Shown: positions 2,621 through 59,907 of the stretch, piece after piece | Layout of the letters: every line of letters starts with the position of its first letter | How positions within the stretch are numbered: position 1 is the first letter of the stretch | Source: a virus | IMG/VR virus record: IMGVR_UViG_3300042565_001021 | Coordinates: 62,001-126,000 of that record | DNA: 64,000 bases | Strand: one strand, 5' to 3' | Program-made: the position numbers and the translations under genes | The notes under the pieces: generated by a model | The model's database searches: none | The model's input: only the letters and a program-made list of their open reading frames with translations | Told to the model about the DNA's origin: nothing

Positions 2621-2865
2621 TCTTTCACTCCGAAATGCTTACGCAATGCTTCAAGGTAGTTATCGGTGCCCATAACTTTATTACCGTTGTCAATGGCCGA
2701 ATAAACGTTAGCGCATTCAATCACAATAAGCTCAGCGAACTGTTCGACCGCTGCGTCAAACTCGATAACGTCGTCGTCGTTAAGTTGATGACAGAACGCC
2801 CTGTACCGGTCATACAGCTCGGCTAAGTCAGTTTTTACTGCTAGGTCAATCACTCGTTGGTTCAT
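2617..2865 (-). CDS. FAELIVxEC-family small protein, copy 1
   Basis: 82 residues with core FAELIVIECANVY and the ending FGVKE. The same core and ending occur in the proteins at 4848-5075 and 56387-56650, so the phage has three paralogues. This is a common small hypothetical family of large phages with no known function. Its start overlaps the end of the RNA ligase C-terminal half by four bases. Confidence 0.65.
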   Translation of the reverse strand: MNQRVIDLAVKTDLAELYDRYRAFCHQLNDDDVIEFDAAVEQFAELIVIECANVYSAIDNGNKVMGTDNYLEALRKHFGVKE

Positions 2866-3455
2866 TCTTCTACTCCTTGTTCAATCCAGTGACAGTTAAA
2901 CAGCCAGCGCACTTCATCAACCTTAGTCTGAGTCGAGCACGACTTTGCGATTGCACCCTTTACTAACTCGTAGGTGTTTTCCTTCTGATCAAACATCTTG
3001 TACAGGAAACGCTGATACTTTTCTTCCTGCTTCTGTACAAACTCAACCGCGTAGATCTTACGGTCAACATCGAGCTTTGCTTTTGCAGCAGCAATACGCA
3101 GATCAATTAAGGTCAGCGAAGTATCACGAACACCGTTCCAGAACTTGTTTTCAAATTCCTCAAAACGTGCCAAGTCCTTAGCGTCCAGGAAAGTACGCAC
3201 GTCGTCGGCCTGCTCGTTAGCGATGATCTCGATCACGTTCTTTTCGCGGCCGATCATGTCCTTGGCCTTGTGCTTGATCATATAGTCTTCGCTTTTACAC
3301 TTTACGCGATGGCCAGAATCCCATGCAACAACAAATCCCTCTTCGCCTATTAGGCCACGCACAAAGGAAATGAACTCCTGTGGATCTGCCACAGAGTTAT
3401 GCGATTTAACTGTAGGAATGTTAAACTCGCGAATCTTATCTTGAAGTATTGTCAT
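2862..3455 (-). CDS. RNA ligase 1, C-terminal half (split gene)
   Basis: 197 residues that align with the C-terminal part of T4 RNA ligase 1: nucleotidyltransferase motif IV (EEGFVV, residues 38-43), motif V (VKCKSEDY, 51-58, with Lys52 and Lys54), and the later DRKIYAVEF segment matching T4 DRKTYAMEA. The lysine-adenylation half lies at 4260-4847, beyond a GIY-YIG cassette. The half has its own promoter (3465-3493) and ATG but no visible ribosome binding site, so the mRNA would be nearly leaderless. The two chains could assemble into one ligase that repairs nicked RNA such as cleaved tRNA. Confidence 0.75.
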   Translation of the reverse strand: MTILQDKIREFNIPTVKSHNSVADPQEFISFVRGLIGEEGFVVAWDSGHRVKCKSEDYMIKHKAKDMIGREKNVIEIIANEQADDVRTFLDAKDLARFEEFENKFWNGVRDTSLTLIDLRIAAAKAKLDVDRKIYAVEFVQKQEEKYQRFLYKMFDQKENTYELVKGAIAKSCSTQTKVDEVRWLFNCHWIEQGVEE

Positions 3456-3464
3456 AGTGTTACT

Positions 3465-3493
3465 ATTATACTACCAAAAAGAATAAATGTCAA
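3465..3493 (-). promoter_or_regulatory. Sigma70-type promoter giving a near-leaderless mRNA
   Basis: TTGACA (3488-3493), a 17-base spacer and TATAAT (3465-3470) point toward the RNA ligase C-terminal half. Only nine bases separate the -10 element from the ATG at 3455, leaving room for a leader of about two bases. Confidence 0.75.
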
Positions 3494-3507
3494 GAAATAT
3501 TTTATAG

Positions 3508-3551
3508 GATAAATAATAGTGCGGGCCGCGATACTTGTAATATCCGCCCGC
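3508..3551 (+). promoter_or_regulatory. Late promoter plus two-tier hairpin leader of endonuclease cassette 1
   Basis: GATAAATA (3508-3515) matches the T4 late promoter core at seven of eight positions. A hairpin follows at once: outer stem GCGGGC (3521-3526) with GCCCGC (3546-3551), inner stem GATA (3530-3533) with TATC (3541-3544). The same layout with different paired bases precedes the cassettes at 32727, 43392 and 51302. Confidence 0.7.
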
Positions 3552-3574
3552 TCTAGACGAACCAGGAGGCTCAT

Positions 3575-4312
3575 ATGTCCAGCAACGATATTTATCAGCT
3601 GTATTACACATACCAACTAATTGATCCACGATCAAACTTACCATTTTACATTGGCTTCGCAAAAGATCCGCTGCGACCATATGATCATTTAGCGCAGTGT
3701 AAGAATTGGTTAGCAGGTAAGAAAGTTCCTCATCCAAACTATATCAAAATGGCCAAAATAAGAGACATTCTTAGTGAGGGTTACGAGTTCAAATTTGAAA
3801 TTATTTACAAAAGTTACGATCCAAATCAAGCATACGACAAAGAAACTGAGTTAATAACAAAGTATGGAAGACAAGACTTAAAGACAGGATTCTTATCTAA
3901 TATGAATGCTGGAGGCCGCGGCTGTCTAAATCCAAGTGACGAAGTAAGAAAGAAAATAAGTGACGGAAACTGCGGCACATTAGTTGAACGATGGGGCAAG
4001 GAACGAGCAGAGAAACAACTGGCGTTTCTTCGCAAACAACCCAAAGAAGTGATGGCAGAGCGCGGAATGAGAGGCGCTAAACACATCATTGACAACGGTT
4101 GGTCCAAAGAAACATTATCTAAAAGAAGTAAGTCAAGATTGCTAAACACGGTTAAACGCATCCAAAACCATTATCACCAGCCATACACCGAAGAGTTACG
4201 CATACAAGCAAGAAAAGACAAGGTTGCCTTTGTTGATAAGACAGCCTTGTCTAATTATGTCACAGAGGAAGATATTCGCCAGTTATCATATGACGGCAAG
4301 CCAACAGAGTAA
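3575..4312 (+). CDS. GIY-YIG homing endonuclease, cassette 1
   Basis: 245 residues. The N-terminal GIY-YIG nuclease core is visible as YQLYYTYQL...LPFYIGFAKD (about residues 7-32), followed by ETELITKYG around residue 91 with the catalytic-type Glu, and a DNA-binding part with SDEVRKKIS. It starts at ATG after AGGAGG. It lies antisense inside an RNA ligase gene and its 3' end overlaps the N-terminal half by 53 bases. It carries its own late promoter and leader. Free-standing endonucleases of this kind cut an uninterrupted allele and spread by recombination. Confidence 0.8.
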   Translation: MSSNDIYQLYYTYQLIDPRSNLPFYIGFAKDPLRPYDHLAQCKNWLAGKKVPHPNYIKMAKIRDILSEGYEFKFEIIYKSYDPNQAYDKETELITKYGRQDLKTGFLSNMNAGGRGCLNPSDEVRKKISDGNCGTLVERWGKERAEKQLAFLRKQPKEVMAERGMRGAKHIIDNGWSKETLSKRSKSRLLNTVKRIQNHYHQPYTEELRIQARKDKVAFVDKTALSNYVTEEDIRQLSYDGKPTE

Positions 4313-4847
4313 GCATGGGCTTATCGTAGTGAATCACAATCCGGTTATCAGGCGCTGTGTATTCAAATACCGGAGTGATTCCGTTTTCAATACACCAAGT
4401 CGAAAACGCCAGATACTCTGGATGAGCAGCAATAAACGGTTCCGCTTGAAGCGCAACATCAGTTAGTCCCATCTTCGTCCCAAAGCGAACCTTACCTTCA
4501 ACCATAAATGGTGACAGAAAAGAACCGTCAAGCTTGGTATAAACAGTATGCGGCTCAGAGAAATCAACATTCGCTAACTGCGTTTCTTCTTTCTCCATCA
4601 AGTTGAAAAATTTATGAAGAGGGCGACGAAGAATCTCACCAGTAGAAGAGCGGAAGATCATGCCGCGCAGTTCGCGCAGGATAGCGTGAGCTTCGTTTTC
4701 AACAGGAGGAAAGGTATCCGCCATCTGTACCACGTAGTTGATGACTGTGTAATCACCGTCCTTTACCGCGACAATGAACTCAGGCTTATCCGCAATCAGC
4801 GGCAATACCTGCGAAATGTTTGTGATCAACGGAAATTCATACTTCAT
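4260..4847 (-). CDS. RNA ligase 1, N-terminal half (split gene)
   Basis: 195 residues with the adenylation motif KLDGS (nucleophile Lys105), the RELRGMIF segment (58-65) and EYTAPDNRIV, all aligning with T4 RNA ligase 1. The reading frame stops after ITGEYLPL, the place where T4 continues toward motif IV, and the remainder resumes at 3455. Summed lengths suggest no coding sequence was lost. It follows the FAELIVxEC gene at 4848 without a gap. Confidence 0.8.
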   Translation of the reverse strand: MKYEFPLITNISQVLPLIADKPEFIVAVKDGDYTVINYVVQMADTFPPVENEAHAILRELRGMIFRSSTGEILRRPLHKFFNLMEKEETQLANVDFSEPHTVYTKLDGSFLSPFMVEGKVRFGTKMGLTDVALQAEPFIAAHPEYLAFSTWCIENGITPVFEYTAPDNRIVIHYDKPMLTLLACRHMITGEYLPL

Positions 4848-13433: not shown

Positions 13434-14786
13434 TTACATCCCCCTGAATACTTTACCGGAAATTCCCGTGGTACCGTCGGTTACAACAATACGGAACATT
13501 TCGAGATCTTCAAACTTGAAGGCTGTCGTAGTTACACGATCGCGCCGTTCTTGCCTGCCGTAGATCGAACCACTGTATGATGTAGTATGCTTGATCTTTA
13601 CCTTGTTGTCAACCAGCATATCTTCGATCTCGGCTAGGGTTGCGTCGTAATCATATTGGCAAGTTACGTCGTTATACTTCCCGTTGTCGCCACGCATCGC
13701 AATATACATCTTTCCATCGTGCCTAGCAATGATTGGGTCAGTGCTGTAAGAACCCACCCGTGGCCACATCGGTCCTACAATCTTCTCGCCGAGCGGTTCC
13801 AGCGTTGTGGTTATCTTGCTCATATCGATCTTAGTCGGAGACACAAGGATTACGTTGCCTACGTCGTCAATACCAACGTCCCGGCTAAGCTCAGCAGTTA
13901 CGGTCTTTGCTACCTCCAGCTTAGACAACGGGGTAGGAATCTTGTCAAGGATCGCTACCACCTTAGGTGAAGCGAGCGTAAAATACTGACCACCGTTAGC
14001 AGATTTGAACAAGTACTTGTCTGTCTGCTTGGTGTTGAATCTGTGAACTCCGGTGCCATAGGTGTAATAACGACTGCGACCGTCTTTAATCTCTTCTTCG
14101 TCAACCTCAAGGAAGAAGTACTTGCCCATGTAATAACATGTTTCGTATTTCCCGGCAATCTTGCTTGAGAGGAGCTCAATCTTGTCGCCTGGGTTGATAT
14201 CCTTTAGCGAAATCTTCGTGTTTACCTTCGTTGTCATTGCCGTGGCAGCGATAAACGGTTCAGAGGTCTCCGGTAGAAGGATGTTGTTTGCACCTTGCCG
14301 GCCCCAAACGCACTTGCCCTGGATAACGCCATTCACTATTGTGGAGCAGGAGAGCACACTCGCGAAGTTCTCGCTGCTGATCTCAAGATCGAAACCACGC
14401 GGGTCAGTAATGCGCCATTTCACATTACCGCCGCCGCCCCAGCCATAACGGCGAACTGACTTAGCAATCTGGAAGCCTTCGACTGGCACGTTGTCAAGGA
14501 TGCGCGGGTAGCAGTTAGCGATGAACAGCATACTGGCATCCCAATGCGTCACATTTGCTCCGTATCCACGATCGCCACCGCCTGTCACTGTGACATCATC
14601 GTCTTCGTTGATTTCTACTTTAACGCCGTGGCCATAAGCCCAGCTGTCTTGCGTTGATTTTCGTTTTTCAAACGCAGCGTCTTTCGTGTAAGGCGAAGCA
14701 AAGCCGAGTAGGCCATCTTCGTTGTTTGCGTCACCACGGTATTGAACGGTGGTGTAAAGCTTACGCGGAATAGTAGTTGTAACCAT
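13434..14786 (-). CDS. Large hypothetical protein, 450 aa
   Basis: A soluble, beta-rich protein without a signal peptide. Notable stretches are GGGDRGYGANVTHWD, GWGGGGNVKWRITDPRG and YSGSIYGRQERRDRV. AGAGGATAAT precedes ATG 14786. No domain is recognised; it is probably an early cytoplasmic protein because no late promoter is close. The largest unexplained gene between the ligase and the phosphoesterase. Confidence 0.65.
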   Translation of the reverse strand: MVTTTIPRKLYTTVQYRGDANNEDGLLGFASPYTKDAAFEKRKSTQDSWAYGHGVKVEINEDDDVTVTGGGDRGYGANVTHWDASMLFIANCYPRILDNVPVEGFQIAKSVRRYGWGGGGNVKWRITDPRGFDLEISSENFASVLSCSTIVNGVIQGKCVWGRQGANNILLPETSEPFIAATAMTTKVNTKISLKDINPGDKIELLSSKIAGKYETCYYMGKYFFLEVDEEEIKDGRSRYYTYGTGVHRFNTKQTDKYLFKSANGGQYFTLASPKVVAILDKIPTPLSKLEVAKTVTAELSRDVGIDDVGNVILVSPTKIDMSKITTTLEPLGEKIVGPMWPRVGSYSTDPIIARHDGKMYIAMRGDNGKYNDVTCQYDYDATLAEIEDMLVDNKVKIKHTTSYSGSIYGRQERRDRVTTTAFKFEDLEMFRIVVTDGTTGISGKVFRGM

Positions 14787-14838
14787 ATTATCCTCTAATT
14801 AAAAGTATATTAAATATTAACACATTAATTTACAATAG

Positions 14839-14892
14839 TCACTCCCACGCTTGTTCTTTTGTAAGAGCTGGTCTTTCGTATGGTCTGGCCAA
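14839..14892 (-). CDS. Possible 17-aa peptide
   Basis: TTG at 14890-14892 follows GGAGAG inside the upstream gene's last codons and opens a short frame (ARPYERPALTKEQAWE) that ends at 14839. The spacing and codon sense suggest expression, but so short a frame may be chance. Confidence 0.25.
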   Translation of the reverse strand: MARPYERPALTKEQAWE

Positions 14893-15160: not shown

Positions 15161-15434
15161 ACACTTCCCAGTCGTGCTTCCTACAGTCCCAATGGCGGTG
15201 ATCGTAAATCTTAGCGTTCAACGTGTAGCCAAACAGATTGATTTCAAACGACGGGCCTGCGTGGTCACTGCCTTTCCAGTTGAGATCAACCGCAAGCTCG
15301 AGCACGTTGTAAGCGTAGCGAGAGAACTGAACCTCCCACGACTTGTTTTCGCAGATTGGTCCAGTAGTACAACCGAGATTCTCAAACTCGCCGTGCTTGA
15401 ACGGATTACGGATAGCAAACCAGATATTAATCAT
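15144..15434 (-). CDS. Conserved phage hypothetical protein, 96 aa
   Basis: It contains GPSFEINLFGYTL and YDHRHWD, features of a widespread small phage protein family that is beta-rich and of unknown function. ATG at 15432-15434. Confidence 0.65.
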   Translation of the reverse strand: MINIWFAIRNPFKHGEFENLGCTTGPICENKSWEVQFSRYAYNVLELAVDLNWKGSDHAGPSFEINLFGYTLNAKIYDHRHWDCRKHDWEVYDGKE

Positions 15435-15446
15435 CCTTGGAACCCC

Positions 15447-15626
15447 TTAATAATTAATTCGCGCACGTTTTTCTTCCTTTGTTCTGTAGTCGAACCGGTG
15501 GCGTTTGCCGACCAGCCTGTAGAATTTCTTGTCCATTTTCTTGCCCAGCCACAACAGTGACAGGACAGTAACAGCGCCGATAGCAATGTCAGTTAGTGTT
15601 CTTTCAGTTGTTTGCTTTTTAGCCAT
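15447..15626 (-). CDS. Single-pass membrane protein, 59 aa
   Basis: ATG at 15624-15626 overlaps the upstream stop (TAATG). Residues 12-28 (TDIAIGAVTVLSLLWLG) span the membrane, and the rest is strongly basic (KKMDKKFYRLVGKRHRF), so the C-terminus is probably cytoplasmic. Confidence 0.6.
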   Translation of the reverse strand: MAKKQTTERTLTDIAIGAVTVLSLLWLGKKMDKKFYRLVGKRHRFDYRTKEEKRARINY

Positions 15627-15850
15627 TACAGCTTTTCTCCTGGAGTTATGTCAGCCCACTTCTTCCCGATGCGCCACGCTGACTCCGGAATAAACATTAT
15701 CGTTGAACCCAATCCTACTGCCATCGGGTTTGCCTTTTGCTCAGCGGCGTTGCTTACCTTTGCCGCTTCTTTTGCCTTTTGAAAAGTAGCAAGGTCCGGA
15801 AACCCAAACTCCTCAAAGTTCGTCCCGTCCAGTTTTCCTAAGTATTTCAC
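15626..15850 (-). CDS. Hypothetical protein, 74 aa
   Basis: ATG overlaps the ligase stop by four bases. No motif is recognised; the end reads AWRIGKKWADITPGEKL, similar to the very end of the ligase (GFAKGEKL). Confidence 0.6.
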   Translation of the reverse strand: MKYLGKLDGTNFEEFGFPDLATFQKAKEAAKVSNAAEQKANPMAVGLGSTIMFIPESAWRIGKKWADITPGEKL

Positions 15851-17256
15851 AGTTTCTCTCCCTTAGCAAAGCCGCGCCACGTCTTGAAGCGCGGGAACCT
15901 CATGCTCCAGTAATCGTTGTCGTCGGACTTAGTCAGCGCGTCTGCGCGGATCTCGCCAATGTCGCCAACGCAGCTCGGGCCGTTCGGCACTTCCGTTATC
16001 GTCTCCCACTTGCCCTTTACCTTCTTCTGCCAGGTAACCGGCTTGCCAGTGAAGTTCGCCCAAATCTGCGCACGTTGTTGAATGCTGTAACCACCACCGC
16101 AGGTGACCTTTACCTTCTTGCTGTCAACCACGCCTTCGAACACGATCGCGCCCATTGTGCCTTTGAACTTGCTGTCGGGCTTGCCTTCTTCGACATCGAC
16201 CGCAGTAAGCGACTCTTCGATGAACGGCTTCATCTTCATCCAGTTCAGCGAACGCTTACACTCGTACAGCGCCTCCGGATCCTTCAGCATAATGCCTTCG
16301 TACTTGCCCAGGAGCGCCAGTGCGTTGATTTCTAGCAACCGCGCCTTGCCTTCCTTAGTGTCCAGATCCACAAGTTCGGTGCCTACAACCGTTACGTTGG
16401 GCAGCTTGTCGCAGAATATGTTGGTGGACCAGTATATCAACGAAGCCGTGCGCGCCGCCTGCTTCTCGGTACTCTTGCCAGCTAAGAACTCGCTGAGTGG
16501 AAGGAAGTCAAACAAGTTGAGCACCGTGTCGTCTGCTTGGACGTCGGTCTTGCGCTTCGCTTGCTTCATCAAGTCCTGGAAGCTAGCGGACATCACTTCG
16601 CCGTCGAACACCATTGGATATCGGAGTTGCGACGCAATTGTCGCAAACTGCGATTTGATCTTTTCGAAGTTGAACAGCTCTTTGCCGTTGCGCGAATACT
16701 GGTTCACCTTGCCGTCGGGATAAACGATTGTGATGCAGCGCATGCCGTCAAGCTTGACGTCGATAATTTTCTTGCCGCACAGCAATTCCTCGGCTACGTT
16801 GCCTTCGTCGTCCACGCAGTCCTTAGCGAGCTGCACTTCGAACACCGGAATTGCGTATTTGGGGAAATCTTTTTCGCACACCTTGTTAACTGTGCTTTCG
16901 CTGAAGCCCGCCTTGAGGTCCTTTATAAGCACCAGGCGGTACCAGCCGTTCCATTCTTCGGTCGTTGCCAGTGCCATTGCTGCGCCAATTGCGTCCTGCG
17001 CAGCGTCACCAGTCAGCTTGCGCTCAGCAAGTTCCTGACACAGGTTGAAAAACATAGCAGGCGCAAGTCCAGGGCCGCTCTTCTTGCTTTCGGGCACCTT
17101 CTTCACTCCCAGTGTCAGCATCGGATCATACGCAATGCGAATGCCCCGGAACAGGTCATCATTGCCTGCTATGGCTTCTTGGAGCAGGAAGGTTTGTTTG
17201 GCCAGCTTTGAGTCGTTTGCTGTAATCTTCGCTAGCACAGTCCAGGGTTTGTTCAT
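15847..17256 (-). CDS. ATP-dependent DNA ligase
   Basis: 469 residues from ATG 17254-17256 (MNKPWTV) with AAGGA upstream. Motif I is KLDGMR with the adenylated Lys168; FDGEVMS (motif III-like), EGIMLKDPEALY (motif IV) and WMKMKPF (motif V) follow in order, then an OB-fold part with GTMGAIVFEG. It has an N-terminal helical domain as in T4 ligase. It seals nicks in phage DNA during replication and repair. It has its own early promoter at 17282-17310. Confidence 0.9.
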   Translation of the reverse strand: MNKPWTVLAKITANDSKLAKQTFLLQEAIAGNDDLFRGIRIAYDPMLTLGVKKVPESKKSGPGLAPAMFFNLCQELAERKLTGDAAQDAIGAAMALATTEEWNGWYRLVLIKDLKAGFSESTVNKVCEKDFPKYAIPVFEVQLAKDCVDDEGNVAEELLCGKKIIDVKLDGMRCITIVYPDGKVNQYSRNGKELFNFEKIKSQFATIASQLRYPMVFDGEVMSASFQDLMKQAKRKTDVQADDTVLNLFDFLPLSEFLAGKSTEKQAARTASLIYWSTNIFCDKLPNVTVVGTELVDLDTKEGKARLLEINALALLGKYEGIMLKDPEALYECKRSLNWMKMKPFIEESLTAVDVEEGKPDSKFKGTMGAIVFEGVVDSKKVKVTCGGGYSIQQRAQIWANFTGKPVTWQKKVKGKWETITEVPNGPSCVGDIGEIRADALTKSDDNDYWSMRFPRFKTWRGFAKGEKL

Positions 17257-27877: not shown

Positions 27878-28822
27878 TTACCTGTCGAACAATGCTGCGA
27901 TTTCTGCGGATTTCTTAGCTAACATCTCTTTAGTGTACTTTGCCTTCTCTATTGCCGCAGGGGTTTCTGCTTTGGCGAACTTACTGCTATTTATCGCTGT
28001 GTTGATTTTACCTAAGTAGATTTCTTTTACTCTCGGAATAAGTTCTTCTTTGCCTACGCTCTGTAAGATGCCTTTAATACTGTCGATCATATCGGCTACG
28101 CGGACTTCTCCGCCTACTAACCCGGGATACTGCTTAACTAACGGAGATGGTGTTCCTCCGAAAAACTTAACTATGTCAAGTGCCCAGGTCTTTGGGTTGT
28201 TAGTGACTGTCTTTAGGTCAACATCCTTAACTGTGCGGAACGGGACGAATGTGCCATTTTGGAATTTTGCTTGAACTCCGTGGCCGCCGCCGATGCTCAG
28301 ATTGAGGACTTCACCGAGCGACGAGTAAAGTGAGTTTGCTAACACACCTTTCATGTTCCACTCTGGCCGTAGTGCGTTAGTCCAGTCTTTATTCTCGTAG
28401 TAAGATGTGATTAGGTCGATCTGAACATAATCGTTTCCTATCTTTAGGATAACATTAACGCCGTTGTCTGAAGAAAAAGCAGAGGTTGAATCGCAAAACT
28501 CTTTAATAGCGTCGTTGTAGATCTTAAGGTTTGCGTTATTTGTGGTTCCTTCAATGCGTGGGATATGGAACTGGACATCAACGTCGCCATACTCTTTGTC
28601 TGGCTGTTGAACTAAGTCCCGTTCGTAGTATGTTGCGCTGCCACCCGGTGCCGATATCTCTGTTGGTCCTAATCCTTTTGTCTTTAGGAAGTTGTTCAAG
28701 GCGGGAATAAACTGAGTAGTTAATACCTTCATACATTGCTGAACGAGCCGTGGGGTAATAACTGTGTTTTGTGTTAGTGTCGATGCCCATCCACCTTCTA
28801 AAATAATTTCGTTAATTTTCAT
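27878..28822 (-). CDS. Putative packaged nucleotidyltransferase-like protein
   Basis: 314 residues starting MKINEIILEGGW, with ILE as the possible cleavage site. GGSATYYERDL (about 60-70), GDVDVQFHIP (about 78-87) and VQIDLI form the GS...DxD...D pattern of the nucleotidyltransferase fold. Such enzymes add nucleotides to tRNA, DNA or proteins; the substrate is unknown. ATGA overlap with the upstream gene. Confidence 0.55.
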   Translation of the reverse strand: MKINEIILEGGWASTLTQNTVITPRLVQQCMKVLTTQFIPALNNFLKTKGLGPTEISAPGGSATYYERDLVQQPDKEYGDVDVQFHIPRIEGTTNNANLKIYNDAIKEFCDSTSAFSSDNGVNVILKIGNDYVQIDLITSYYENKDWTNALRPEWNMKGVLANSLYSSLGEVLNLSIGGGHGVQAKFQNGTFVPFRTVKDVDLKTVTNNPKTWALDIVKFFGGTPSPLVKQYPGLVGGEVRVADMIDSIKGILQSVGKEELIPRVKEIYLGKINTAINSSKFAKAETPAAIEKAKYTKEMLAKKSAEIAALFDR

Positions 28823-32007: not shown

Positions 32008-32595
32008 TTAGCGTCGAGTAATGATTTCGTCCACTAAGCCAAAGTCCAGGGCTTCTTGTGCGGACATGAAATTATCACGCTCCATGGCAGCAGCAAATTC
32101 GTCAAACGTCTTGCCTTTGCTATTGTGATCAACGTAGATCTGCGTAAGAACCTTCTTCATTTTGAGGATTTCTTCGACCTGAATAAGCATGTCCGTTGCT
32201 TGACCACGTGCACCACCGCTAGGTTGGTGAATCATGTGTCGTGCATACGGGAGGATCATGCGCTTACCTTTCGCGCCTGCTTGAGCAAGCAACGAACCCA
32301 TGCTACAGGCCTGACCCATTACGATAGTGCGAACGTCACACTTTACGAATTGCATGGTATCGTAGATGGCCATACCTGCCGTTACGATGCCGCCCGGGGA
32401 GTTGATGTAAAAGATAATCTCTTTGTCTGCATCTTCTGCTTCAAGGAACAACATTTGCGCTACGACTACGCTAGACGACACCTCGTTTACGTCATCGTGA
32501 AGCATAACGATACGGTCTTTAAGCAAGCGACTGTAGATATCGTAGCTACGTTCGCCTTTAGCGGTTTGCTCGACTACCATTGGAATAAGGGACAC
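32008..32595 (-). CDS. clpP: ClpP serine protease subunit
   Basis: 195 residues, full length for a mature ClpP. The catalytic triad is Ser98 (GQACSMGS), His123 (HMIHQPSGG) and Asp174 (MERDNFMS). YINSPGG forms the substrate-stabilising turn. The start is GTG 32593-32595 with GAAAGGTAA upstream. ClpP forms a tetradecamer working with host ClpX or ClpA. The phage also encodes a ClpS-like adaptor (47408-47719). It has its own promoter. Confidence 0.92.
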
Positions 32596-32661: not shown

Positions 32662-32704
32662 CATAAATAAAAGTGCAGTTCGCGATGTTGAAGCATCCAA
32701 CTGC
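32662..32704 (+). promoter_or_regulatory. Late promoter plus two-tier hairpin leader of endonuclease cassette 2
   Basis: CATAAATA (32662-32669), then outer stem GCAGTT/AACTGC (32675-32680, 32699-32704) and inner stem GATG/CATC (32684-32687, 32694-32697). Compared with cassette 1 the paired bases change together. Confidence 0.7.
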
Positions 32705-32726
32705 CCTAGACTAACCAGGAGGCTAT

Positions 32727-33275
32727 ATGTCCAGCAATAATACTTATTACGTTTACGCATATCTGCGCAATAAAGACTCAAAAACTGCTAAAGCAGGAAC
32801 ACCTTATTATATTGGCAAAGGATCAGGACGACGCGCCTGGGTAACCCATAAACATAAGACCCCGGTGCCGAAAGATAAAACGTTTATTGTTCTACTTGAA
32901 CAGAATTTAACTGAAGTCGGAGCATTAGCCTTAGAGAGGAGAATGATTGCTTGGCATGGAAGAAAAGATTTAGGAACAGGCATTCTATTAAATAGAACAG
33001 ACGGAGGAGACGGTTGTAGCGGAGTTATTATGTCTGAATTAACTAAAGAAAAACGTAATGCTGCGCAAAGAGGAAAGAAGTTGTCAGAAGAACATAAGAG
33101 AAAAATATCTGTCGGTTCAAAATCAAGACCGCCTATATCCGAAGAAACGAGAGAAAAATTTAGGCTACGAAACAAAAACCGGGCGCCGATGACAGCTGAA
33201 GAGAGGGTAAAATTATCAATTGCAGTAACGCAGTCATGGGCAAGAAGAAAATTACTTAAATCTTCTGCCGCTTAA
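32727..33275 (+). CDS. GIY-YIG homing endonuclease, cassette 2
   Basis: 182 residues. TYYVYAYL...GTPYYIGKGSGRRAW (about 5-37) is the GIY-YIG core, and LERRMIAWHGR carries the catalytic-type Glu. Three NUMOD3-like DNA-binding repeats follow (LSEEHKRKIS, ISEETREKFR, MTAEERVKLS). AGGAGG precedes the ATG. Inserted between clpP and a SprT-like gene, overlapping the latter's end by 20 bases. Confidence 0.85.
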   Translation: MSSNNTYYVYAYLRNKDSKTAKAGTPYYIGKGSGRRAWVTHKHKTPVPKDKTFIVLLEQNLTEVGALALERRMIAWHGRKDLGTGILLNRTDGGDGCSGVIMSELTKEKRNAAQRGKKLSEEHKRKISVGSKSRPPISEETREKFRLRNKNRAPMTAEERVKLSIAVTQSWARRKLLKSSAA

Positions 33276-42533: not shown

Positions 42534-42754
42534 TTAACCCACCTCAGAGCGAACAGAACAGCGTCTGATTCTTTTTCAAAGGAAAACGTAAGTGGCCCGT
42601 ATCCTGTGTCTTCGTCTTCATGGGTGCTAGTCATTCGTCCGGTTATGTTCTTTGCTACCCAGCAAGCAGACCCTTGCATAACGCATTCGGTCCAGTTGTC
42701 AACAATGACGTTATACGGATACGGTGCCCATGGCAATTTTCTGTTCACAGCCAT
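42530..42754 (-). CDS. (K/R)W-family mini-protein, first of array 2
   Basis: 74 residues with ECVMQGSACWVAKNI and ending EKESDAVLFALRWVK. It overlaps the end of the TOPRIM gene by 10 bases, so the array is transcribed from that gene's promoter at 43288-43316. Confidence 0.7.
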   Translation of the reverse strand: MAVNRKLPWAPYPYNVIVDNWTECVMQGSACWVAKNITGRMTSTHEDEDTGYGPLTFSFEKESDAVLFALRWVK

Positions 42755-43281
42755 TTTGCGAACAGCTCCTTAAATTCTTCTTCGGTTAGGTCACCTACGT
42801 CCTTGCCTTCCGGCAGGAACACGCATTCAGCACCGTACTTAGCAAGCTTCTTACCTGCTGCGTCGCCCTGAACACAAGCTACCTTCCGCTGCGGCATCCC
42901 CATCAGCCAACCAGTTAGATGCTTTGGGTTGTTGCCCATTACAGCAACAGCAGGCAGACCGTGCCAGTGTAGCCGAGCAGCGTCAAACACGCCTTCGGTC
43001 AGGAACAGAAACTTGTCCGTCCAGCGTACAGTTTCGAGACCCCACACAGCCAGGTGAGCGTCTTTGCTTGCGCAAGGCTTGGTTACCCAGCTAAAGTATT
43101 TCTGTAGCTTTGGGTCGCCTACTTCCTTCTTAGGCTGTGACGGAGAATACGTCTGAAACCCAACTGCCTGCCCAGATAAATTCCATAACATCACAGTCAT
43201 CATTTTATCTGTCACCGTAAGGCTACTATACCGCTGCGGGTCAAAATAACGACTACGTAGATGAGTTAGCATTTTATCCAT
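42745..43281 (-). CDS. TOPRIM-domain primase-like protein
   Basis: 178 residues from ATG 43279-43281, six bases after the -10 box. FLFLTEGVFDAARLHWHGL (about 91-109) has the conserved Glu of TOPRIM, AVMGNN follows, and ACVQGDAAGKKLAKYG supplies the later acidic residue (DxD reduced to GDAAG). A longer DnaG or T7 gp4-like primase has an extra zinc-binding domain and helicase; here only the TOPRIM half remains, so it may be a primase subunit or act on nucleic acid otherwise. Confidence 0.6.
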   Translation of the reverse strand: MDKMLTHLRSRYFDPQRYSSLTVTDKMMTVMLWNLSGQAVGFQTYSPSQPKKEVGDPKLQKYFSWVTKPCASKDAHLAVWGLETVRWTDKFLFLTEGVFDAARLHWHGLPAVAVMGNNPKHLTGWLMGMPQRKVACVQGDAAGKKLAKYGAECVFLPEGKDVGDLTEEEFKELFAKWL

Positions 43282-43287
43282 GTTTGT

Positions 43288-43316
43288 ATTATACATGAAA
43301 ATTTACTAAATGTCAA
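43288..43316 (-). promoter_or_regulatory. Sigma70-type promoter for a leaderless mRNA
   Basis: TTGACA (43311-43316), 17 bases, TATAAT (43288-43293), then six bases to the ATG. It drives the TOPRIM gene and (K/R)W array 2. Confidence 0.8.
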
Positions 43317-43324
43317 CCAAAAAA

Positions 43325-43366
43325 GATAAATAAGTGTGGACCACGGAGTTCGCCGCTCCCGCCCAC
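43325..43366 (+). promoter_or_regulatory. Late promoter plus two-tier hairpin leader of endonuclease cassette 3
   Basis: GATAAATA (43325-43332), outer stem GTGG/CCAC (43336-43339, 43363-43366) and inner stem GGAG/CTCC (43345-43348, 43356-43359). The sequence differs from the other three leaders but the pairing layout is the same. Confidence 0.6.
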
Positions 43367-43391
43367 TCTAACGCTATAAGGAGCAATCAGC

Positions 43392-44009
43392 ATGTATATT
43401 TATACTTCAGAACAAGTAAGACCATATGTTTATATGGGAATTCATAAAGTAACCGGTGAGATTTACATAGGTTATCGTGAAGCAAACTCAACTCCGTCAC
43501 ACCTTGATATCTTCGAATATCGGACTTCGTCTAAGATAGTTAAACCGAAGTTTGATGATTATACCTGGTATATAGTAGCAGAGTTCATAACAGGTGATGC
43601 GGCTTATGACTTTGAACAACAATTGATATTTGAAAATTGGGATAGTCCTCTTCTGTTAAACAGAAGCTGTCAATTTGGTCATCAGAAAAGATTTAAGTGT
43701 TCAAATAAAGGAAGAAAACAATCAGACAGTCATATCGCAAAGCTGACTGAGATTCGTAAAAATAGGACACTTCCGGCTGATTTCGGCGCAAAGGTCTCGG
43801 CTGGTCTCAAAGGAAAACCGAAATCCGAAGAGCATAAGATAAAAACAGGTAATGCCTTTCGAGGGATCCCTCGAACTGAAGAAACTAAGCAAAAAATTAA
43901 AGAGAAAAGAGCTCTTCAGGTAATAACACATGAATCAAGAATTAAAGCCGCAGCGACCCGAGCAAGAAACTTAGCATTGAAAAGTCAACCAAAAGAAATG
44001 GGCCCATAA
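43392..44009 (+). CDS. GIY-YIG homing endonuclease, cassette 3
   Basis: 205 residues. RPYVYMGIHKVTGEIYIGYRE (split as RPYVYMGIHKVT and GEIYIGYRE, about 9-29) is the nuclease core; FEQQLIFENW carries the Glu. NUMOD3-like repeats follow (QSDSHIAKLTEIR, KSEEHKIKTG, RTEETKQKIK). Placed in the gap upstream of the TOPRIM promoter, in the same antisense orientation as the other cassettes. Confidence 0.8.
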   Translation: MYIYTSEQVRPYVYMGIHKVTGEIYIGYREANSTPSHLDIFEYRTSSKIVKPKFDDYTWYIVAEFITGDAAYDFEQQLIFENWDSPLLLNRSCQFGHQKRFKCSNKGRKQSDSHIAKLTEIRKNRTLPADFGAKVSAGLKGKPKSEEHKIKTGNAFRGIPRTEETKQKIKEKRALQVITHESRIKAAATRARNLALKSQPKEMGP

Positions 44010-51247: not shown

Positions 51248-51290
51248 GATAAATAATAGTGCAGTTCGCGATACGCAAATATCCAACTGC
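51248..51290 (+). promoter_or_regulatory. Late promoter plus two-tier hairpin leader of endonuclease cassette 4
   Basis: GATAAATA (51248-51255), outer stem GCAGTT/AACTGC (51261-51266, 51285-51290), inner stem GATA/TATC (51270-51273, 51280-51283). It lies about 18 bases from the likely start of the membrane gene on the other strand. Confidence 0.7.
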
Positions 51291-51301
51291 CTTAGTCATC
51301 C

Positions 51302-51880
51302 TTGGGAGGATATATGACCAACACTACTATTTATGATAACACTACTGCCACAAAAACACAAGAGTTTAAGCCAACTTACCTATACATAAAACAGCATAAT
51401 GTTACCGGATTGAAGTATTTCGGTAAAACCATTAGTAGCGATCCTGTTAAATATAAAGGTTCTGGGTTAATGTGGAAAAGACACCTTAAGAAACACGGAA
51501 ATAACGTTACAACTACTTGGTTGAGGTTGTTTACTGATCAAAAAGAGTTAACTGAATTTGCTCTCGACTTTTCAAAAGAAAATAACATTATCGAATCCAA
51601 GGAATGGGCAAACTTATTATTTGAAGATGGAGTTGCCGGCGGGTTTGGTGGTCATACTATTAAAGGTAGAAAGTTAGGTCCTATGTCTGAAGAACATAAA
51701 AGAGCACTATCTATTGCTAATCGTGGAAAAGGTCGCCCACCTATTTCAGAAGAAACCAGAGTTAAAATGTCAGCAGCAAGAAAAGGGAAGCCGGCTGCAA
51801 ATGCCGGAAAGAAGCACTCCGAAGAAGCCAGGCGCAAAATATCTGAGGCCAGAAAAAGATACCTTAGTAAGGTCTTATAA
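51302..51880 (+). CDS. GIY-YIG homing endonuclease, cassette 4
   Basis: 192 residues from ATG 51314 region (MTNTTIYDN; GGGAGG upstream) or the upstream in-frame start. PTYLYIKQHNVTGLKYFGKT (split as PTYLYIKQHNV and TGLKYFGKT) is the nuclease core, here with KYFGKT for YIG. NUMOD3-like repeats MSEEHKRALS, ISEETRVKMS and HSEEARRKIS follow. Same leader as cassettes 1 and 2. Confidence 0.8.
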   Translation: MGGYMTNTTIYDNTTATKTQEFKPTYLYIKQHNVTGLKYFGKTISSDPVKYKGSGLMWKRHLKKHGNNVTTTWLRLFTDQKELTEFALDFSKENNIIESKEWANLLFEDGVAGGFGGHTIKGRKLGPMSEEHKRALSIANRGKGRPPISEETRVKMSAARKGKPAANAGKKHSEEARRKISEARKRYLSKVL

Positions 51881-52270: not shown

Positions 52271-52297
52271 ACTGTAAGTCTCCTTACAGTATTTATC
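52271..52297 (-). promoter_or_regulatory. Late promoter with 8-bp hairpin framing the ribosome binding site
   Basis: GATAAATA (52290-52297, minus strand) is followed by ACTGTAAG, GAGA, CTTACAGT, ending right before the ATG at 52270. AAGGAG is in the stem and loop of the hairpin. Confidence 0.7.
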
Positions 52298-57955: not shown

Positions 57956-58729
57956 ATGCGAGCAAACGAATTCATCATTGAAGGTCCTGTAGCACCAGTT
58001 TCCCAGGACAAAGAACAAATATTTAAACAGGTCTGGAATCACGAATTTGAAGAGCCAGGCAACCTGTGGGACGATCACGGCTACGATCGCCCTGAGGATA
58101 TAGAAAACCCATTTACGATAGACAATAAGCTTAGGCACGTCGGTACTGGTGCCGAAGCGGCAGTAGTTCGCTACGACGACGCAAACTCAGTATTTAAAAT
58201 CATTGGTACTTATCAACAGCTTGGGCAAAATGCTCATCTCCAGTACCTGTTAGCAACTAAAAAGTATGCTGGGTCAAATCCTTACCTCCCAAGAATCCTA
58301 AGCTTTAACGAAGTCCCGCAGATTTCAGGTAAGAACAAAAGCGTAAAAGGGTATGCTGTCAGGATGGAACGTTTATTTCCTTTTGACACCTCTTACAAAG
58401 GTGCGGCTACTCCAGAAATGGAGATTATGCTACAGAAAATATTCGGACCCGACTTTGTATCATACATGGAAAACACTAACCATTTTACCCGATACATCAA
58501 ATACGCCATTAACGGAAAATTAGCTTACTTAGTAATTGATCCGCAGTTCAAACAAGCAGCAGAACTTATTATCGCAGTAGCAAAGCAGATGGATTCGCAA
58601 TACGATGTTGATACTCTAATAGACTTACACATCGGAAACATAATGATTCGCCCGACTAAGTTTGGACCACAGCTTGTATTGTCTGATCCGTTATATAACG
58701 GCGGCGAACACCTAAGAACATCATCATGA
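57956..58729 (+). CDS. Putative packaged kinase-like protein
   Basis: 257 residues starting MRANEFIIEGPV, a perfect copy of the 23-32 kb tag. The kinase fold shows as VGTGAEAAVVRYDD (Gly-rich loop, about 62), VFKIIG (Lys), AVRMERLFPF (hinge), and IDLHIGNIMIRP...LSDPL (catalytic loop and metal Asp, about 222-244). The only tagged gene on the plus strand, after its own late promoter. Coupled by ATGA to the next kinase-like gene. Confidence 0.65.
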   Translation: MRANEFIIEGPVAPVSQDKEQIFKQVWNHEFEEPGNLWDDHGYDRPEDIENPFTIDNKLRHVGTGAEAAVVRYDDANSVFKIIGTYQQLGQNAHLQYLLATKKYAGSNPYLPRILSFNEVPQISGKNKSVKGYAVRMERLFPFDTSYKGAATPEMEIMLQKIFGPDFVSYMENTNHFTRYIKYAINGKLAYLVIDPQFKQAAELIIAVAKQMDSQYDVDTLIDLHIGNIMIRPTKFGPQLVLSDPLYNGGEHLRTSS

Positions 58730-59907
58730 ATCTAAATCAAATCAGACCACAATTTGTTATCGTGATAGGAGGCGCGGGATCAGGCAAAAATTACTTTATT
58801 TCAAATGATCCTACCTACTCAAAGTTTTTACTCGTTGATGTAGATGCTATAAAAGGCGAGCTCGGTGTTGGCCCAGCTATTTCCGCAATTAAGCCAATGC
58901 TCGAAAAAGCCTTTGCCGAAAAGAAGAACGTAGCTCACCCAACAACTGGCACGAACCTAAAGGCACAGCAGAACAAGTTAGCTCTCGCACAAAGGAACGG
59001 ATACTCAACGACCATAGTATTAGTTGATACTCCAATTGACCAAGCAATAGCGCAAGTGCGGAAACGCTACAGAGAAGGCGGACACGACGTCGCGCTTGAC
59101 AAGATTGTTAGTTCAAACAAGTTAGCCCGAGAGAACTTCGAAGCTCTTAAAGGGTTAGCTGATAACGCAATTGTAACAGGTAACGAGACTAACGAAGCTG
59201 CTCTTCCGTATGCTGACCCGGCAGAGCAGGCCAAATACCAACGGGTGTGGCATGCCGACCGAATTTCGGACCCAGCTGATTTTTCATCCTCTTACTACAA
59301 TAAATCTAATCCGTTTCTGACTCCGGCGCACAGAAAGATTCACGACGACGGATACGAGCTACTAGGGTCGGGGGTAGAAGCAGTAGTTGTTCGCAAACCA
59401 GGTGACAACTCGGTTGTTAAGATATTCGGAACGGAGAAAGCAATTAGAGACTGCGCAGCTATGCAATACCTTTTACTGAGCCGAAAATACTCTAACGTTA
59501 ATCCTTACTTCCCTAAGATAACTTCAGTTCAACAAGTCAAAGCACCTGCAGCAGGTAACATAATGTTCGCTATTCATATGGAACATCTGACAGAGTCAAT
59601 GAGTGCAAACGGGTTTGATATAGAGGTAATTTTTAAAACAATCTTTACAGACCAATACTTAGAGCGATTTACAGGCGTTGCTTCTAAGGGTATCGCAACT
59701 CAATTAGCGTATGCTGTTAGTTCAGCTGTAGACGGGACCATACATCCTACTAAAATAAAAGACCGGAATTTCCTTAATGCTGCTGCGCTAATCAACAAAG
59801 TTTATAGAAAGAGTGACGCCGGAATCGACTTACACAGTGGTAACATTATGATTCGTTACTCTGACGTTGGTCCGCAGTTGGTAATTACCGATCCAGTAAT
59901 TGATTAG
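58726..59907 (+). CDS. P-loop NTPase fused to a kinase-like domain
   Basis: 393 residues. The N-terminal P-loop GGAGSGKNY (17-25) with LLVDVDAIKGEL and IVLVDTPIDQAI resembles zeta-toxin or AAA_33-type small-molecule kinases. The second half repeats the kinase-like fold: GSGVEAVVVRKPG (about 207), VVKIFG, IHMEHL and IDLHSGNIMIRY...ITDPV at the end. It has no tag. It is translated together with the tagged kinase and may be its partner. Confidence 0.65.
   Translation: MNLNQIRPQFVIVIGGAGSGKNYFISNDPTYSKFLLVDVDAIKGELGVGPAISAIKPMLEKAFAEKKNVAHPTTGTNLKAQQNKLALAQRNGYSTTIVLVDTPIDQAIAQVRKRYREGGHDVALDKIVSSNKLARENFEALKGLADNAIVTGNETNEAALPYADPAEQAKYQRVWHADRISDPADFSSSYYNKSNPFLTPAHRKIHDDGYELLGSGVEAVVVRKPGDNSVVKIFGTEKAIRDCAAMQYLLLSRKYSNVNPYFPKITSVQQVKAPAAGNIMFAIHMEHLTESMSANGFDIEVIFKTIFTDQYLERFTGVASKGIATQLAYAVSSAVDGTIHPTKIKDRNFLNAAALINKVYRKSDAGIDLHSGNIMIRYSDVGPQLVITDPVID

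Follow-up and report, generated by a model that had tools for sequence, protein, structure and literature searches.

Endonuclease cassettes of the window and their surroundings

The window analysed here is a stretch of 64,000 nucleotides, bases 62001-126000 of a 155,045-base virus record (IMGVR_UViG_3300042565_001021), and its genes of T4 type include those for an RNA ligase/tail-fibre attachment catalyst, a primase and a ClpP-like protease. Four leaders of homing endonuclease genes, predicted from the letters alone, were located as claimed at 3508, 32662, 43325 and 51248, each with an ATAAATA late-promoter box (3509, 32663, 43326 and 51249, respectively) and with two-tier stems. In leader 1, the outer arms (3521-3526/3546-3551) read GCGGGC/GCCCGC and the inner arms (3530-3533/3541-3544) GATA/TATC. 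Since leaders 2 and 4 have the outer stem in common, the window alone provides three outer and three inner variants. The features of the four cassettes and of their neighbours are as follows.

3509..3515, plus strand: cassette 1 sense late-promoter box ATAAATA; predicted mRNA start at 3521; TAAATA conserved
3509..3583, minus strand: cassette 1 predicted antisense RNA; 5′ end at 3583 (GCTG); model match 3509-3602, E 2.5e-11
3521..3551, minus strand: cassette 1 two-tier hairpin P1/P2, the hairpin of the original prediction; covariation and wobble
3553..3582, minus strand: cassette 1 second hairpin P3′, over the endonuclease Shine-Dalgarno sequence and start codon; fold and wobble
3589..3595, minus strand: cassette 1 antisense late-promoter box ATAAATA; sequence motif
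3575..4312, plus strand: endonuclease 1; GIY-YIG below the Pfam cut-off; inside the RNA ligase gene
3465..3493, minus strand: sigma70 promoter for the RNA ligase 3′ half; 12/12 matches, spacer 17
2862..3455, minus strand: split RNA ligase, 3′ half; phrog_562 208-363
4260..4847, minus strand: split RNA ligase, 5′ half; phrog_562 30-194
32663..32669, plus strand: cassette 2 sense late-promoter box; sequence
32663..32735, minus strand: cassette 2 predicted antisense RNA; model match 32663-32754, E 2.6e-12; fold
32741..32747, minus strand: cassette 2 antisense box, variant ATAAGTA; sequence, variant class
32727..33275, plus strand: endonuclease 2; no Pfam match alone; tblastn relatives include an annotated Seg-like endonuclease
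32008-32595, minus strand: ClpP-like gene beside endonuclease 2, which lies upstream of it
43326..43332, plus strand: cassette 3 sense late-promoter box; sequence
43326..43391, minus strand: cassette 3 predicted antisense RNA; model match 43326-43410, E 1.4e-11; fold
43397..43403, minus strand: cassette 3 antisense late-promoter box; sequence
43392..44009, plus strand: endonuclease 3; no Pfam match alone; assigned by the shared leader
51249..51255, plus strand: cassette 4 sense late-promoter box; sequence
51249..51322, minus strand: cassette 4 predicted antisense RNA; model match 51249-51341, E 1.4e-11; fold
51328..51334, minus strand: cassette 4 antisense late-promoter box; sequence
51314..51880, plus strand: endonuclease 4; NUMOD3 (Pfam)

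Endonuclease 1 splits a gene for a T4 gp63-like RNA ligase (2862-4847), and its insertion gives the 5′ half of this gene its stop. The RNA ligase gene is intact in three related loci (L128, L130 and L131), and in a fourth (L129) a different endonuclease interrupts it at the same site. A perfect sigma70 consensus, TTGACA-17-TATAAT, nearly abuts the start codon of the 3′ half, leaving this start almost leaderless, and this divergent promoter arrived with the insertion. A divergent sigma70 promoter was nevertheless rejected as a part of the cassette, because such promoters are found mainly with minus-strand neighbours and belong to them, the split RNA ligase being the exception. The idea that all the cassettes split genes was also discarded, since PHROGs searches on ten other loci found mostly different flanking genes.

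The primase-like protein encoded at 42745-43296 (minus strand) matches only positions 141-334 of phrog_849. Its gene begins next to endonuclease 3, has a TTGACA/TATAAT promoter that almost touches the ATG, and may be a second split or truncated gene. The N-terminal part of the primase was not found elsewhere in the record, and a search for intact primase relatives for cassette 3 returned only the window's own near-identical contig. In Sinorhizobium phage phiM9, one cassette likewise adjoins a primase gene (15307-16377). Apart from the cassettes, the window encodes at 58726-59907 (plus strand) an AAA_33/zeta-like domain fused to a C-terminal part that matches the phage protein kinase family phrog_15752.

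Distribution and covariation of the leader element

An 18-base pattern of the hairpin core matched at least 117 IMG/VR stretches and a relaxed pattern at least 120; among the matches listed, 142 non-redundant leaders remained after those more than 90% alike had been dropped. In nearly all of the listed matches, a start codon and a nuclease ORF come next, in agreement with the claim that the cassettes encode homing-endonuclease-like proteins. Clear ORF-less remnants number only three among the 142 leaders (L084, L219 and L267), and these are broken off inside or just past the hairpin P3. In 95 downstream proteins, Pfam recognized NUMOD3 (36 proteins), several HNH models, GIY-YIG, SegE, the I-TevI DNA-binding domain and one TnsA-like nuclease; nucleases of several folds thus share a single leader.

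A covariance model of the element (R1) found ten copies in this 155-kb genome, all of them with an ORF; other records contain as many as twelve (12 elements in a genome of 142 kb). Among cultured phages, it detected one copy each in Caulobacter phage Cr30 (E 1.5e-5), Variovorax phage V45v66 (E 9.6e-10) and Pseudoalteromonas phage XG4 (E 2.8e-7) and two in phiM9 (E 2.5e-8 and 1.2e-5); those of Cr30 and phiM9 sit at annotated homing endonucleases. The copies span 136923-137021 in Cr30, 85995-86077 in V45v66, and 28169-28254 and 14763-14858 in phiM9. No copy was found by R1 in T4, Aeh1, S-PM2, phiM12, phiN3 and several other phages. The sole match in bacterial genome contigs, L324 (DITO01000157.1), comes from a metagenome-assembled Erysipelotrichaceae genome; this contig of 3.5 kb may belong to a phage and have been binned with that genome. 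Rfam 15 gave no family match above the gathering cut-off: neither strand of the window matched, and the best weak match was atoC (13.9 bits vs 50 needed). A megablast search of INPHARED and a blastn search with the consensus returned nothing.

The original prediction held that the paired bases of the leaders change together under selection for pairing, and this covariation persists in a larger alignment. In 128 aligned leaders, 9 of the 11 pairs of P1/P2 have changed on both sides, and double-changed cells amount to 327; shuffling yields 106 ± 8, and sliding the partner strand no more than 24. Some positions are fixed by the search patterns; pairs 3-5 of P1 and pairs 3-4 of P2 are free in one or both of them. 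P3, which lies in no search pattern, has arms that complement each other better within a leader than between leaders (3.9 vs 2.6 pairs; equalled in 0 of 2000 permutations). Across the leaders, loops vary and stems persist, and an invariant TCGCGA/TGG core with bulged Gs stands amid otherwise variable stems.

The tops of P2 in the IMG/VR leaders occur as reverse-complement pairs, for example AATTGGCGTT and AACGCCAATT; six such pairs were seen, which suggests hairpin inversion by template switching. These inversions, together with the same left boundary found in front of unrelated nucleases, are what could be expected of a DNA-level element, either a strand-specific single-stranded hairpin or a recombination arm, that helps endonuclease genes to spread or to be exchanged. 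Such an element would leave the two promoter boxes and their transcription-start geometry, described below, unexplained, and no matching right-end element was noticed in an unsystematic inspection. We regard this explanation as extremely unlikely.

Strand of the selected structure and geometry of the promoter boxes

Three features absent from the original prediction bear on the strand that carries the structure: the ribosome-binding site is covered by a second hairpin, an ATAAATA (or ATAAGTA) box stands on the opposite strand just within each ORF, and a wobble asymmetry assigns the structure to the opposite strand. The ten inner pairs of P1/P2, read on the endonuclease strand, contain 42 A.C or C.A combinations, no G.U and one other mismatch among 1280 cells, and the A.C cells are spread over at least 18 distinct stem contexts. 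The departure that an RNA helix tolerates is G.U, and an A.C cell is a G.U on the other strand; the structure thus appears to have been selected on the antisense strand. P3 follows the same rule. Its alignment was anchored on CTA and CAGC, and its third pair, fixed by these anchors, is yet a permanent wobble, G.U on the antisense strand and C.A on the sense strand in 131/131 leaders. The free pairs 4 and 5 of P3 contain 68 G.U, no A.C and 3 other mismatches on the antisense strand. Because of this wobble pattern, the extended helix P3′ of 8-9 bp exists on the antisense strand only. The mean minimum free energy is also lower for the antisense strand (-17.5 vs -12.2 kcal/mol), which has the lower value in 95% of cases. 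Mutation bias could tilt the ratio of A.C to G.U, but it would neither fix a permanent wobble nor suppress the other mismatches. Counting A.C against G.U can in this way expose an apparent mRNA leader structure as belonging to the other strand.

The original prediction regarded the hairpin as the selected 5′ end of the late endonuclease mRNA, where it might stabilize the message or tune its translation. The conserved sense promoter does place the mRNA start at the first base of the stem, and P1/P2 is still able to form on the sense strand, with -8.2 kcal/mol. Selection on the mRNA strand is opposed, however, not only by the inner-stem counts but also by the wobbles of the second hairpin and its full helix on the antisense strand alone, by the antisense fold advantage of about 5 kcal/mol and by the late-promoter box on the opposite strand (CAGC-N5-TATTTAY on the sense strand), which an mRNA leader does not explain. 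This part of the prediction was not borne out, and we consider it very unlikely that the pairing is selected on the mRNA; a weaker mirror image of the hairpin would remain in the late mRNA and may have an additional role there.

The two boxes have fixed positions. On the sense side, RTAAATA is followed after 5 nt by the G that is the first base of P1 in 116 of 130 leaders. On the antisense side, RTAAATA-N5-GCTG, or CAGC-N5-TATTTAY on the sense strand, lies just inside the endonuclease start. CAGC and TAYTTA (antisense TAARTA-N5-GCTG), a combination that was part of no search pattern, are spaced by 4-6 nt in 123 of 142 leaders and by exactly 5 nt in 103 of these 123. The start codon precedes TATTTA by 5 nt in 77 leaders, by 3 nt in 23 and by 4 nt in 17, and in a further group, which includes cassettes 1, 2 and 4 of the window, it lies upstream of CAGC. 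With the start codon floating over three reading frames, the antisense box is kept as DNA rather than as protein; conservation of TATTTAY as a coding sequence was rejected on the same grounds. The variant TAAGTA occurs in the antisense box of about 15% of the elements and was not seen on the sense side, and the antisense box is displaced or unclear in two copies from cultured phages, V45v66 and XG4. An outer stem between RTAAATA and TATTTAY was also dismissed, because TACTTA variants keep the sense TAAATA and the end bases show no covariation.

In this genome, RTAAATA occurs upstream of ORFs at 22 of 86 sites, as against 3 of 94 for control motifs, about ten of the 22 being the cassettes themselves; judged by this distribution, it is a promoter-like motif. 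The late sigma factor gp55 was not detected in this record. In two other phages that carry the element, a gene for a T4-type late sigma factor (gp55) adjoins a cassette; in these (L252 and L105), the cassette sits between an SbcD-like (gp47) gene and the gp55 gene.

Many cassettes lie antisense within arrays of minus-strand genes, and a T-rich stretch follows the hairpin on the minus strand. The hairpin might hence serve mainly as a terminator or insulator against minus-strand transcription crossing the cassette, with the antisense box keeping the neighbour transcribed or being incidental. Among cassettes whose ORF is at least 100 aa long, however, the antisense box is kept in 63 of 64 with minus-strand neighbours and in 40 of 40 with co-directional ones, and the hairpin is kept with co-directional upstream genes as well. 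This equality also disposed of the proposal that the box is a promoter of the divergent neighbour only. Neighbouring minus-strand genes often have a sigma70 promoter of their own, and conserved bulged Gs, P3′ and a promoter at a fixed distance would all be superfluous in a plain terminator. A terminator or insulator as the main function is therefore judged unlikely.

A putative cis-antisense RNA and its relation to known systems

The explanation we favour, with some reserve, is that the conserved leader probably encodes a small cis-antisense RNA, whose gene overlaps the endonuclease gene at its 5′ end. It rests on conservation, covariation, strand asymmetry, fixed promoter geometry and coupling to nuclease ORFs, all of them properties of the sequences; from these we infer transcription, termination and repression for the antisense RNA. 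The late promoter RTAAATA-N5-GCTG inside the endonuclease start would fire away from the endonuclease and yield an RNA of about 65-75 nt, predicted to fold into P3′ (8-9 bp), one spacer base, the bulged hairpin P1/P2 and a U-rich tract. The loop of P3′ would be complementary to the Shine-Dalgarno sequence, and the U-rich 3′ tract would coincide with the endonuclease's own late promoter, so that the two putative promoters would be convergent. Since complementarity would be complete over both the leader and the ribosome-binding site of the endonuclease mRNA, such an RNA would probably limit late translation of the endonuclease by pairing and possibly by promoter collision.

On the minus strand, cassette 1 presents in order the box (3595-3589), the predicted start G (3583), P3′ (3582-3553) and P1/P2 (3551-3521) with two bulged Gs in its 3′ arm, followed by ACTATTATTTAT down to 3509, where it coincides with the sense promoter. 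The predicted RNA is about 75 nt long in cassette 1 and 66-74 nt in the other three cassettes. The antisense strand is T-rich 3′ of the hairpin, and this T-richness is kept in cultured phages in which the sense box has degenerated. AC precedes the U-tract next to the stem, and a simple terminator scan made no call; by its composition, the U-rich tail fits a terminator, though an imperfect one.

The combination of variable loops and fixed stems fits an antisense RNA, because its target is its own complement, always in cis. The two conserved bulged Gs exceed what plain antisense pairing needs and suggest a bound protein. With the invariant core amid variable stems, the association with nucleases of unrelated folds and the up to 12 copies per genome, they could also point to an RNA acting in trans or to a ribonucleoprotein partner, such as a cofactor of the nuclease or of a late-transcription factor recognized through the bulged-G helix. 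However, intact copies almost always overlap a nuclease ORF, the ORF-less ones being broken, and the unrelated folds of the nucleases make a single protein cofactor role unlikely. This alternative to a cis-acting antisense RNA is given little credence. An extension of the antisense reading that is no less speculative is a mobile RNA module, in which one structured antisense RNA gene would be attached to endonucleases of unrelated folds, its bulged-G core would be bound by a protein of the phage or host, and the RNA would also act in trans, for example by setting the dose of the roughly ten cassettes per genome.

The repression supposed for the cis-antisense RNA is suggested by its layout and by the precedent of sar in phage P22. 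The sar RNA has two stem-loops and covers the ribosome-binding site of its target, and the promoters are convergent. It is about 68 nt long, is antisense to ant, and pairs with the target mRNA and inhibits it (PMC12197685). The present element resembles sar in its putative opposite-strand promoter at the start of the target gene, a frame-independent RTAAATA-N5-GCTG motif, in its complementarity to the target ribosome-binding site and in being folded on the antisense strand; this is a likeness of layout, and no homology is claimed. Whereas sar is a single system directed at an antirepressor in a temperate phage, the element here forms a covarying family that precedes many nucleases of no mutual relation, and its phages are of the lytic type, with late boxes of the gp55 type.

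Antisense RNA over a homing endonuclease gene has been described in the T4-like cyanophage S-PM2, namely CfrI (PMC2984593, PMC12197685). Unlike the present element, CfrI is about 225 nt long, links psbA to the endonuclease gene and is a single confirmed case, and R1 has no match in the S-PM2 genome. With no match in Rfam either, we call the element a new RNA family, although cis-antisense control itself is already known. Antisense control of a phage homing endonuclease has one confirmed case, CfrI, and the element would widen it to a whole family, defined by covariation. Members of this phage group may contain as many as a dozen selfish endonuclease genes, and burdens of this size raise the question of how they are kept in check. 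The coupling of a conserved RNA to several nuclease folds suggests a portable control of dosage, carried along with the parasite. Cultured phages of Sinorhizobium, Caulobacter and Variovorax offer a way to test this.

T4 I-TevI, I-TevII, I-TevIII and SegB and MobE of Aeh1 combine a late promoter with a hairpin that sequesters the ribosome-binding site; the structure in the read-through mRNA hides this site, and transcripts with the late start escape (PMC2988022, PMC3014915). The present cassettes share with this type a late promoter (RTAAATA at a fixed spacing) immediately upstream of the endonuclease and a structure around the ribosome-binding site. The layout nevertheless differs from that of I-TevI, as had been noted in the original prediction: there is no mRNA-strand helix with its 5′ arm upstream of the late start, both arms being downstream of the predicted start, and the pairing is selected on the opposite strand. 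In the same window, several late-type genes (at 52296, 32003 and 10468, all on the minus strand) possess a hairpin in which the 5-nt spacer downstream of RTAAATA forms the 5′ arm and the Shine-Dalgarno sequence lies in the loop, as in CTGTAAGGAGACTTACAG. By analogy with T4 gene e, late transcripts of these genes would lack the 5′ arm and translation from read-through transcripts would be blocked.
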